From: a virus
Direction: 5' to 3' (one strand)
IMG/VR virus record: IMGVR_UViG_3300043395_000613
Span: 1-27,351 of that record
Length of the DNA stretch: 27,351 nucleotides
Shown here: positions 1,482-15,300 of the stretch, piece by piece
Numbering within the stretch: position 1 is the first letter of the stretch
Layout of the letters: every line of letters begins with the position of its first letter
The notes under the pieces: generated by a model
What the model saw: the letters and a program-made list of their open reading frames with translations, nothing else
The model's database searches: none
What the model was told of the DNA's origin: nothing
Program-made: the position numbers and the translations under genes

Positions 1482-1657
1482 CGGAGCAACCCATGTTCAC
1501 AGACTCAGGCAGGGATGGTGCTCGTAGATCCAAGGAGCCTAGGCCTAGACATAACTGGCATTACAAGATGGATCACGAGACGTACATAACTAAACATCAT
1601 CCTGACTGGGTACCATACGATGGCACATTCGAGATTACTGTTCGACATCGAGACTAA
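1478..1657 (+). CDS. Small hypothetical protein overlapping the polymerase start (59 aa)
   Basis: The ATG overlaps the previous stop (ATGA), with AAGGG 7 bases upstream. The product is polar, basic and rich in His and Arg (for example RRSKEPRPRHNWHYKMDHE), with no recognised domain. Its last 12 codons overlap the first 38 bases of the DNA polymerase gene in a different frame. It fills the otherwise non-coding gap between 1481 and 1620, and its initiation signals match its neighbours. Translation through it would carry ribosomes to the polymerase start, which has only a weak SD of its own. Function unknown. Confidence 0.6.
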   Translation: MTEQPMFTDSGRDGARRSKEPRPRHNWHYKMDHETYITKHHPDWVPYDGTFEITVRHRD

Positions 1658-3416
1658 CAGTATCGACTTCGATACTGATGTGTACTGGCTCGATCAGGTG
1701 CAGACAGTACTATGCATGGTGGTCAAGGACCTGGATACTGGGAACACGTACCAGTTCTATGATACCCATGATCTGCGTATCCTCGGTACGCAAGGACTTC
1801 AACAAGGACTTAAACTACTGGAGCAAGCAGATGAATGGGTCGGACATAACATCATTGCATTCGACATCCCCGTCTTGGAAAAGCTTTTTGGAATCAAGAG
1901 AGCTCCTCGCATTCTTGACACTCTTGTCTTATCTCGACTTCTCTACACGGATAGATCGGGAGGACATTCTCTCGAATCTTTTGGAGAAAGACTGGGCCTC
2001 CCTAAGCTCGACTCTCCTGGATTTGGAGCATTCACTCCAGGTCTGCTTACATATTGTACACGAGATGTCGAACTCAATGCAAGAGTCCTCGCTCTCCTAG
2101 AGCAGGAGGTAAAGGGCGGTGATTGGGGATCCTCTATTGAACTCGAGCACAAGATCGCCGACATCATGTTCCGACAGGAACGATTGGGAATGGCGTTCAA
2201 CCTTCAGCAGGCTATTGAGTACACATCCACATGGGCTGACGAGATCGCCGAGATCGACGTACGTCTGGGGACCATGGTCGGTCCTCGCATTGCAGCTTGG
2301 GTTGAAGCCAAGAAGCCCTTTAACATCAACGGATCTATTAACGCCAAGGTTAAACAGTGGGCGGATACTGTTGGACTTGATACCTCTCTGATCGCTGGCC
2401 CATTCCAGTTCATTAAGATCGAACCGTACGATTTCGAAAGCAAGAACCAACAGAAAGATATTCTATTGAGGCTAGGATGGAAGCCCGTAAATCTTACAGC
2501 ACAAGGATTCCCTCAGCTCGACGAGAGCATTCTGAATGTAGGGGAGGTGGGCTCGCTTCTCATGCGGCGGAACGTCTTAAGCCACAGGAGATCTCAAGTC
2601 CAAGGGTGGATCGACCGATGCGACAGTCAAGGTCGAGTCCATGGTGGCGCGAATCCGTGTGGTACGAACACGCACAGGATGCGGCACAAGGTGATAGTGA
2701 ACGTCCCGAAAGTTCGTGTCGAGTTAGGCAAGGAGATGAGGGGGCTATTCGTAGCTGCACCTGGGAAGATCTTAGCTGGGTATGATGCGAAGCAATTAGA
2801 ACTCAGGATACTAGCACATTACATTGGAGACCAAGACTATGTCGAACGAGTCACAACAACAGACAAATCCCGAGATGCCCACGTTCTCGCCGCAGCTGCA
2901 GCTGGATCTGGAGATCGAGATCTTGGAAAGAATATTAACTACGCTCTCATCTATGGGGCAGGTGATCGCCGCTTGGGATCACTGGTCGGTGGAGGATCTG
3001 AAGGCGGGGAACGAATACGTGCTGAACTATATCGAAGCATACCGGGCCTTGAAAGACTCATTCGAGCAGCTAAAACAGCAGCTCAACGAGGGCATCTCAT
3101 CGGACTCGATGGACGAAAGTTCTACATCCGAGGAGTAGTATCCCCTCTGAATACCTTGATTCAAGGTGGCGGTAGCATCTACATGAAAAGAGTTACCGCT
3201 ATGCTTGACTCGCTCGGCGGCGAACTCCCAGGGTGGAACAAGGTCTTAGATATGCACGACGAAGCGCAGTGGGAAATCCCAGACACCGAGTACGATAAGC
3301 TCTGTTTCAAAGATAAAGTCGAATACGCGTTTCAGAAAGCTAACGAATACTACAACCTCAGATGCCCACAAGAACCGGATGTTAAGTTCGGATACACATG
3401 GGCGGAGACACACTGA
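1620..3416 (+). CDS. DNA polymerase, family A, T7 gp5-like with 3'-5' exonuclease
   Basis: 598 aa. Exonuclease motifs: FDIETN at the N-terminus (Asp9, Glu11), HNIIAFDIPVL (Asp82) and YCTRDVEL (Asp149). Polymerase motif A is YDAKQLELRILAHY (Asp389). Motif B is RDLGKNINYALIYGAG (Arg433, Lys437, Tyr441). Motif C is MHDEAQ (Asp547). Tyr at the motif B position corresponds to T7 Tyr526, typical of dideoxy-sensitive enzymes. The protein is about 106 residues shorter than T7 gp5 (704 aa). The gap between exo III and motif A is 240 residues against about 301 in T7, so the thioredoxin-binding loop is probably absent. It should replicate the phage genome with the upstream helicase. The first 38 bases overlap the preceding ORF; the stop overlaps the next start (TGATG). 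Confidence 0.96.
   Translation: MAHSRLLFDIETNSIDFDTDVYWLDQVQTVLCMVVKDLDTGNTYQFYDTHDLRILGTQGLQQGLKLLEQADEWVGHNIIAFDIPVLEKLFGIKRAPRILDTLVLSRLLYTDRSGGHSLESFGERLGLPKLDSPGFGAFTPGLLTYCTRDVELNARVLALLEQEVKGGDWGSSIELEHKIADIMFRQERLGMAFNLQQAIEYTSTWADEIAEIDVRLGTMVGPRIAAWVEAKKPFNINGSINAKVKQWADTVGLDTSLIAGPFQFIKIEPYDFESKNQQKDILLRLGWKPVNLTAQGFPQLDESILNVGEVGSLLMRRNVLSHRRSQVQGWIDRCDSQGRVHGGANPCGTNTHRMRHKVIVNVPKVRVELGKEMRGLFVAAPGKILAGYDAKQLELRILAHYIGDQDYVERVTTTDKSRDAHVLAAAAAGSGDRDLGKNINYALIYGAGDRRLGSLVGGGSEGGERIRAELYRSIPGLERLIRAAKTAAQRGHLIGLDGRKFYIRGVVSPLNTLIQGGGSIYMKRVTAMLDSLGGELPGWNKVLDMHDEAQWEIPDTEYDKLCFKDKVEYAFQKANEYYNLRCPQEPDVKFGYTWAETH
2839..3138 (+). CDS. Candidate overprinted gene nested in DNA polymerase (99 aa, acidic, helical)
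   Basis: This ORF lies wholly inside the polymerase gene in the +1 frame. The ATG at 2839 is preceded by GGAG (2826-2829) with a 9-base spacer, a better ribosome site than the polymerase itself has. The product starts MSNESQQQTNPEMPTF, has a long helical middle (ILERILTTLSSMGQVIAAW; YRALKDSFEQLKQQ) and ends in an acidic Ser/Glu tail. It lacks Cys and is not Arg-rich, unlike most shadow ORFs here. Against it: other long shadow ORFs occur in the same frame of this gene (for example 1678-2100), and its high GC3 is expected because its third codon position is the polymerase first position. Treat as a hypothesis. Confidence 0.27.
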   Translation: MSNESQQQTNPEMPTFSPQLQLDLEIEILERILTTLSSMGQVIAAWDHWSVEDLKAGNEYVLNYIEAYRALKDSFEQLKQQLNEGISSDSMDESSTSEE

Positions 3417-12391: not shown

Positions 12392-15300
12392 TGATTCATC
12401 TCTTCAAGGAATTTAATTGTTTCTTCTTTAGTGGAGAACTCGGGGCCGGAGCGGATTCGGTTAATGAATTCTGGGTCTCTGATGTCCGGGATATAAGCGG
12501 CATACCCAGAGATAACCGCATTAATGAATTGAGTCTCAAGCCCATCTTTTGTTACATCATTAAGGATCAAATCCCGAACTCTGTTAAAGAACCGACGATG
12601 TTCGTCATCAGACAGGGCGTCGCTGAGCATCTGAGCATTGAGTTCAACTAGGCGAGTACCCTCCACAGGATCGAGTTTCCCTTCTCCGAGAAGTTCAGCA
12701 TGCGCTTTCAAGAACTTGTAGAAGTTCGCAGCCTCTGCATCGATCTCGGCTCCGAGTTTATCTTGTTTCGGGTTCCCGATCAGACCTTTGATTTGGATAA
12801 GTTCATCTTGGAGCCATCGGTTACTATGAGCATTCAATCCCATAGTGCCGAGAGCCATCGCTTCTCCAGTGGTAACTTCAGCCCCGACATCACCTGTCGC
12901 TGCAACGTACCTGTTCAGCTCGAGGGCTACACGCCCACGCATGAAGTTCCCATAGATCGGGAAGAACGTCTTCATCCACTCGTTAGCCACAACGATCCCC
13001 TTCTCGGGTCCTGAGATAGGCTCAAACGGGGTACCTAGTGCAGCCGTGGTGAACTTCCAAGCTTCGTATACATCCTTGCCAAGGGCGTAACTCGGGCCTA
13101 ACCCGAACTCGAGAGAAGTCTTGTCTTCGAGTACAATGCCCGTAAGGAATGCTGCTATCGGGTTACCGGTACCAAAGACTTGGTTCCTGCCGCTGATTCC
13201 GGAGAACGGAGCAGCGTTGCCGGAGAACTCGATATCGGCCATCTGTTCGCCGTCTTGATTCCAAGCTTCGAACAGCATGTTCAGGAGAGTACCAGTGATG
13301 CCTTCCCGAATAGAGCGGTCCACTTCGGGAGGAGTATCAACACCTGTAGTTTCTTGAAACTTGTCCCACATCTGGCCTACGCCATACGCTCCGGTACCGA
13401 ACAGGGCGAACTGTTGCCATGCGATCCTAGCTTTCTCTGCATCTGAGAACGCTTTGTTAGAAAGCTTGCCGATAGTCCTCTTATACGCAGTATTGGTTTT
13501 ATCTCCGAGGAGCTTGAACTCGTTCGGTAGAAGCGTTTGCATGCTCTTAACAGCATGCGCTTGGAACTGGAAGATCAGACCGAGAATTCCTTTTTGGAAC
13601 TGCATCGCTCCAGTCTTGTTCATGTTGTACGAAACTACCCGAGCTTCTCCAAAAATCTTCTCTATATTCCCAGGCTCTGCCCATTTGTGTGCGATCTTAG
13701 GATTGTTCTTCATCCATTTGTTTCGCACAGCAAGGAACGCGCCCATGAGTTGGAACTGTTCGCCTGCGTCAAAGCCAATTCGACGGGCGTATTTCCTGAA
13801 CGTGTTAAAAGTATTAACAGCCCCCTGATACACTGGCGCCTTGCCAACTACTCGGTCCACATTAGCGAAGATTGCGTACATGTGAGAATCCACTGACGCA
13901 GGCAGACCGTGTCGTTGATAGATATCAATGAACTTAGTGTATTCCGCCTCGGAGACGCCCATCAACTTGGCGCCTTGCTTCAAGCCGAATTGCTCCCATT
14001 GATCTGTGTTTCGCCACATCGTGCCGTAGATCAGGCCGAGGTAGTCATTCATCCCCTGCTTGGATAGGAAGTATTTCGCTCCGTGGTCTAAGCCAAGATA
14101 GATCGACATCTGCATGGCCTGAAGGGGAAGCTGTCTAAGCGGGTTAAAGATGATACGAACAGTGAAGTTCGCACCCTTGGCAGCATTGATCAGGTTCCGA
14201 TGACGGTTCCTCATCACACCTTCTGCTAATTGATTCAGCCATACGTTATCATATCTGCTTAGATAATTAGACAGATTGATAGCAGTACTACGGCTAACAG
14301 CACTGAACATCGTTTCATCGATGCCAGCGATGTGCGTGATATGACGCTGGAACGCGACAGCCTCTTGGTACGCCCGTTCCGAATTCGGAGTAACTTCAGT
14401 TGGGCGACGGATCTGACTGGTTTCAAGAGGCATCTGCCCATTGACTCCAAAATCCTTTCCGTATTTCTTATCCCAGTTAGCTTTGAGCTTATCGACAAGG
14501 GGGTCAATTGTGCCAGCTCGAGCTGCACGGGCGCGAGCTGCTGCCATACTATCCGATACAGACTTCAGACGACGCTTACCGTTAAGGCCTTTAACCTCTA
14601 CGCCACGGTGCGATGTGAAGAGTTGGCCAGAGTTCTCAAGGTACTCAAGAGAGGTTCTATTTGCGTATTCGATATCCCGTTGAAGTTCTTTAGCTTCGGT
14701 AACCATGTACTTCAGAACTTGATCGTCCCTTTCAGGGAGAGGGAGACCAAGATCTTCATATACTGAATTCTTATTTGCTTCGTACTCAAGGTCTAGGCGT
14801 GCCTTATCCCTAAGAGCCTCTCCTTTTGTGGCGTACATCCGAACAGCCTTAAGACCCTTGACTCTTACACCATTCACAAGGCTATTGTATTCTACTTTTA
14901 AGATATACGGGGCATCATATATCCGAGATATGTACCCAGGTATATCACGAATAACTTCATCAGGGAGTTTCTTGAATTCTACGCCTTTGCCCTCTTTGTA
15001 CAATACGAACTTCGTCCACTCCTTTCCAACCTTGACAGGTTTCTGGAGCTCGATGATTTTAATATTGCCCGGGTTTGCATCAATAAGTTTGGAGATCTCG
15101 TCGATGTCCGTCTTAACCATTCTGTTAAGTTCGGAGTCGTAGATTCTACTTACATTTGCTTCGATGTCTTTGTCGAAGTAATCTTTCCCGCGTACCTTCA
15201 GATCGGAAATAGAAACTTGTTTTCCAAGTTGATCCGCCATCTCTTGGAATTGTCCGCGAGGCAGAACTACATGCTTCCATCCGTCAGCTACGAGCTGTGA

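Follow-up and report, generated by a model that had tools for sequence, protein, structure and literature searches.

The DNA polymerase gene studied here very probably holds a second gene within its coding sequence: the 99-codon open reading frame at positions 2839-3138 (ORF O), lying in the +1 frame of the polymerase, would be a real overprinted gene, translated and kept by selection. To judge from sequence comparison, it would also be an old gene, retained for long in the window phage and across a broad spectrum of its water-borne relatives. An initial annotation had put forward the overprinted-gene interpretation from the letters of the window; it gains support from the relatives, namely from the openness of the frame, from synonymous constraint and from a start codon with its own Shine-Dalgarno (SD) sequence. 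The deciding evidence comes from these relatives and not from the window sequence.

The window, i.e. the whole analysed stretch of DNA, is a virus record of 27,351 bases, possibly a fragment. Its polymerase gene has a primase/helicase gene as upstream neighbour and an exonuclease gene downstream. The features relevant here are the following:

1620..3416, + strand: family A DNA polymerase of T7-like type, 598 aa, within which the overprint lies; Pfam DNA_pol_A 6e-27, PHROG 17 1.7e-108
1831..2100, + strand: candidate ORF A, 89 aa, weakest of the three ORFs; +1 frame, ATG at 1831, GGAG at 1820-1823
2477..2785, + strand: candidate ORF B, 102 aa; polymerase +2 frame, common to the window, L001 and L002 only
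2826..2829, + strand: Shine-Dalgarno sequence GGAG, 9-base spacer to the ATG at 2839; within polymerase Gly-Asp codons
2839..3138, + strand: ORF O, 99 aa, ATG to TAG, polymerase +1 frame; two-helix hairpin predicted
2890..3105, + strand: two helices predicted in the ORF O product, residues 18-45 and 51-89; AlphaFold2, pLDDT at least 90 for 50 of the 99 residues

Coordinates and frame of ORF O agree with the initial annotation, and its GGAG with a 9-base spacer before the ATG was located as described there. The product, with 13 Glu, 13 Ser, 2 Arg and no Cys, indeed lacks an excess of Cys and Arg. A TTG at 2824 is in frame with ORF O, and its use as start would give a product of 104 aa.

Two viral contigs, L001 and L002 (70% and 49% polymerase identity), are the closest relatives; a search of the phage collection at DNA level gave no relative of the polymerase gene. 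Positions in the family are given as residue numbers of the window polymerase, counted from 0 (idx), and expected values come from permutations in which synonymous codons were swapped within each gene, preserving protein and codon usage. In a set of 89 genes, from which hits spanning fewer than 450 residues or containing in-frame stops had been left out, the +1 frame is open over idx 406-504 in 50 genes, compared with 0.6 expected, and contains 121 stops instead of 491. Among 164 distinct polymerase genes, remaining after removal of exact duplicates and of the repeat loci L006, L085, L099, L100 and L107, it is open over idx 412-492 in 138 (2.6 expected), with 102 stops against 709. Because the contigs share ancestry and are not independent, 64 representatives with less than 80% identity were used to lessen this effect (L094 was dropped); 45 of them are open versus 0.95 expected, with 78 stops versus 270. 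These three sets provide the unselected counts, while representatives picked as open have zero stop counts partly by construction.

The depletion of stops is limited to the +1 frame and to approximately 2835-3110; it has sharp edges and involves many separate sites. Six other combinations of region and frame in the 89 genes have observed-to-expected stop ratios of 0.93 to 1.19, and stops in the ORF O region of 17 closed representatives are at normal level. Weaker +1 depletions in the 89 genes, at 2025-2189 and 2250-2369, are faint in open representatives (0.86-1.00). In the early-branching L003, L008 and L009, openness alone is weak (P 0.04-0.10).

Codon choice follows the same stop rule. Leu, Ile and Val codons of the NTA type are rare in the region before G, where they would create TAG in the +1 frame (6% versus 38% elsewhere), and before A (7% versus 23%), but are unchanged before C (48% versus 47%) and before T (32% versus 32%). 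As A-ending codons are rare solely in +1-stop contexts, a regional codon preference would not fit. NTG codons make up 5% in the region and 17% elsewhere before A, and 20% and 17% before G; they are also lower before C (8% versus 18%) and T (12% versus 30%), for which the stop rule gives no explanation.

Reduced synonymous variation, named in the initial annotation as an expected mark of overprinting, is present in deep sampling: in 31 non-overlapping pairs of open genes, 570 synonymous differences were counted at conserved residues of idx 406-500 against 803 expected (ratio 0.71), compared with ratios of 1.08 and 1.03 in the flanks and 1.19 in closed genes (two pairs). Codon position 3 accounts for 60% of substitutions inside the region and 70% outside it (47 pairs). 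The reduction is absent in the pair of window and L001 alone, which was rejected as diagnostic of synonymous constraint: 55 of 83 codons at conserved residues are identical in ORF O, equal to 40 of 61 downstream, the upstream stretch (2101-2838) giving 60 of 149.

The start signal is likewise retained. L001 shares the ATG of the window and has AGGAG 9 bases before it; its product of 100 aa is 59% identical to that of ORF O over residues 1-99, and its stop falls at the corresponding position although 3 bases are inserted close to the end; L002 has AGGG at the site of the window GGAG. In open genes the ATG is usually found at idx 408, otherwise at 412 or 420, and at 406 in the window clade, nearly always with its own SD. 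An ATG with SD is present within idx 400-421 in 39 of 45 open representatives versus 11.5 after permutation (maximum 21 in 100 permutations), the permutation being the control for a listing of start sites that favoured SD-bearing ATGs; in closed representatives the figure is 1 of 17, with 1.6 expected. At idx 408, T is the third base in 31 of the 36 codons that could supply the ATG (21.7 expected). The boundaries drift in the family, starts covering idx 402-420 and stops idx 492-520. The conservation of ATG, SD and stop anticipated for a real gene is therefore complete in L001 and common as a start with SD, but no fixed ATG or stop codon exists family-wide.

The product predicted from ORF O is a two-helix hairpin. 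AlphaFold2 models this fold both for the window member (pLDDT 80 on average, pTM 0.61) and for a distant subfamily whose alignment left out the window clade (pLDDT 84.6, pTM 0.64), in accord with the helical protein suggested initially. The window member is acidic, as also suggested, with a pI of 4.1; this does not apply to all relatives (median 5.2, range 4.1-9.9). GRAVY is -0.62 in the window member and has a median of -0.57, and overall hydropathy does not indicate a hydrophobic membrane segment of the phage lysis protein type (E or L).

Searches for relatives of this product yielded no functional family. The window product matches no PHROG profile at E 0.1, and its best Pfam match (0.013) is below the cut-off of that family; 28 family members gave scattered weak profile matches, the commonest in five of them. 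Sequence profile search of PDB and fold searches of PDB and viral structures found no informative relative. Small helical hairpins in PDB (HP0062, EsxA/EsxB, de novo bundles) have the same two-helix arrangement, with Z of 10.5 and below, but the arrangement is common, with Foldseek E at least 0.4, and gives no evidence of kinship with the ORF O product. WXG100/Esx-like hairpins reach Z of about 9-10 against the ORF O model, the level of any helical hairpin. Kinship based on the two-helix arrangement was rejected since the arrangement is too common.

Whether selection acts on this product or on something else in the region has to be weighed against several alternatives. Translation of the +1 frame might itself matter, for example by tuning elongation of the polymerase or the stability of its mRNA, irrespective of what is made. 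This is improbable, though less so than the other alternatives. It agrees with the drift of start and stop positions and with isolated changes at codon position 1 of the polymerase, of which 51 of 85 inside the region and 139 of 225 outside are synonymous in the +1 frame (Fisher p 0.79, no enrichment); this test shows no sign of purifying selection on the ORF O protein. Against it stands third-base choice that is unrelated to stops and yields Leu at some columns and Ser at others, also Glu or Asp, so that Leu or Ser, and Glu, are placed at set sites of the hairpin. The choice between T and C in NTY codons is column-specific inside the region (mean z2 10.9, with |z| above 3 at 8 of 20 columns) compared with a mean z2 of 1.6 and |z| above 3 at 0 of 113 columns outside it, and GGA is the main Gly codon at seven columns inside, with GGT leading at most columns outside. 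Conservation of amino acids over permutation was dropped as frame-specific proof: inside the region it rises in the +2 frame too (z up to 15), a control that also rises once stops are excluded. Off-frame conservation reflects general third-base constraint as well.

An element acting at the nucleotide level, such as an RNA structure, a regulatory site or a packaging signal, could limit codon choice without any second protein, and both the synonymous constraint and the conservation in the two off-frames would fit it. We consider it very unlikely: the avoidance of codons obeys the stop rule of a single frame, neither a start codon with SD at the 5' edge nor the joint loss of start and open frame would be expected, and no Rfam family is matched. 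Ribosomal frameshifting from the polymerase into its +1 frame, giving a truncated fusion, is hardly credible either. ORF O does lie in the +1 frame of a gene that starts upstream, but the independent ATG with SD is conserved, the two move together among lineages, and 53 of the 89 genes have a +1 stop at idx 401, which would leave a space of a few codons for the shift.

Chance remained a real alternative in the initial annotation. Taken by itself, the openness of ORF O in the window sequence is only moderately unusual: it arises in 0.6-0.7% of gene-wide synonymous shuffles (a value that, like the strict-permutation values for ORF A and ORF B, does not draw on the codon-usage background in which one gene, ssb with 192 codons, was read in the wrong frame), in 0.4% of cases under a genome-derived context model and in 3% under the strictest shuffle, in which the gene-wide count of stop-making choices is held fixed. 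The frame was also said to have a tendency to stay open in the polymerase; two stretches of the window gene, 1831-2098 and 2839-3135, are indeed free of +1 stops, but the gene as a whole has 23 against 25.5 expected, and between the stretches there is an excess (17 versus 10.6). That ORF O is a shadow of polymerase amino acids and codon usage would agree with these window-alone probabilities (0.004-0.03), which are not decisive as several frames and regions were inspected, but is extremely doubtful at the family level, where permutations that preserve the protein and the codon usage of each gene fall so far short of the openness seen in the 164 genes, other frames and flanks are close to expectation, and codon context and start-signal counts refute it as well.

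The reading of ORF O as an overprinted gene would imply the following scheme. The SD, which forms part of polymerase codons (window: GGAGAC; elsewhere mostly AAGGAG or GAGGA), would set the ribosome on the +1 ATG, and translation would thus occur by independent internal initiation on polymerase mRNA. Because ORF O sits on this mRNA, its product would probably be made whenever the polymerase message is made. The model points to a helical hairpin of about 80-110 residues, a soluble protein that might act by binding a partner protein; an accessory factor working through protein-protein contact is the most likely role. Any one specific function would be a doubtful assignment, and roles in host takeover or counter-defence and in regulation of the replication machinery appear about equally likely.

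Openness follows the phylogeny of the polymerase. The alignment of relatives comprised 96 genes from ORFs longer than 1300 bases, and the polymerase tree was rooted at midpoint for drawing only. Among the 64 representatives the open state changes 5 times on the tree, compared with 16.6 changes with shuffled labels. The pattern fits a single origin followed by losses as well as it fits two origins. The frame is open in three cultured phages of Pelagibacter, HTVC103P, HTVC104P and HTVC115P, and closed in T7, SIO1, HTVC142P, LUZ100 and CRP-804. In pelagiphages of the HTVC103P type, the +1 frame of polA is open at the same place as in the window, and HTVC103P has an ATG with AAGGA, although the polymerase is only about 33% identical to that of the window; the ORF is unannotated, the polymerase being the sole feature listed over the region in the three records. 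T7 gene 5 likewise encodes a family A polymerase, belonging to the same broad family and 25% identical to that of the window, but has stops in the +1 frame and no gene annotated inside.

Three closed genes, L053, L127 and L146, are nested among open ones and look like true losses. They contain 3, 6 and 8 stops in the +1 frame (5.7, 5.6 and 6.4 expected); L127 and L146 are without the ATG and L053 is without the SD. They represent natural knock-outs for comparison. Since the frame is closed in T7 and other relatives and has been lost in nested lineages, ORF O would not be essential to polymerase activity, and the several losses favour an accessory role.

The search of the 89 genes also led to ORF B, which was noticed because 4 genes are open in the +2 frame at idx 286-387 compared with 0.4 expected. 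The window, L001 and L002, 49-70% identical, share its ATG and nearly the same stop. Inside ORF B, codons ending in T in stop contexts number 0 of 21, 0 of 21 and 0 of 20, respectively, compared with 33 of 105, 33 of 104 and 56 of 133 in the same contexts outside it; with wider limits, 2 of 65 such codons end in T in the three genes pooled. Strict permutation gives P of 0.002, 0.0012 and 0.0012, and similarity of the products between relatives is weakly above permutation (z 3.4, 1.4 and 0.9). The ATG of ORF A is common to the same three sequences and is preceded by the identical GGAGCAAGCAG; the frame is open in all of them (P 0.07, 0.009 and 0.09 for the window, L001 and L002). In 1828-2100 the window and L001 have 58 of 79 conserved codons identical, which recent exchange could explain instead. 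The wider polymerase set contains no sign of ORF A or ORF B; both may be genes and are candidates resting on three sequences.

Small viruses provide well-known cases of overprinting. Gene E within D of phiX174 and gene L of MS2 are overprinted phage genes for membrane lysis proteins of small single-stranded phages; like ORF O, they are complete second genes in another frame of an essential gene and have their own start, whereas the ORF O product is hydrophilic, predicted to be helical, and encoded within the DNA polymerase gene of a tailed phage. No report of an overlapping gene in a phage DNA polymerase was found in the open-licence literature. The chances are roughly even that two things hold together: that ORF O represents an undescribed overprinted family in the catalytic domain of family A polymerases, spread across a large and ancient diversity of T7-like tailed phages including those of SAR11 in the ocean, and that the window clade carries three overprints (about 1831-2100, 2477-2785 and 2839-3138). 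If so, nearly half of the replicative polymerase gene in the window clade would code twice. A long overprint in the most constrained part of a replicative polymerase, in relatives approximately 30-40% identical, would be surprising; gene lists of widespread marine phages would miss one protein, and polymerase sequences used in phage classification would be shaped by a second one. The cultured carriers (HTVC103P, 104P and 115P) and the three losses make both the existence and the role of ORF O directly testable.

The HTVC103P-type group comprises 146 related marine metagenome genomes according to PMC8528129, in which the term "overlap" occurs 0 times; from this group size, the ORF O gene may be common in the ocean. 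In LUZ100 (L103, OP329100), a terminator, T10, is annotated at 13028-13127, inside the polymerase gene and near the end of the region homologous to ORF O, although this phage lacks the open frame.
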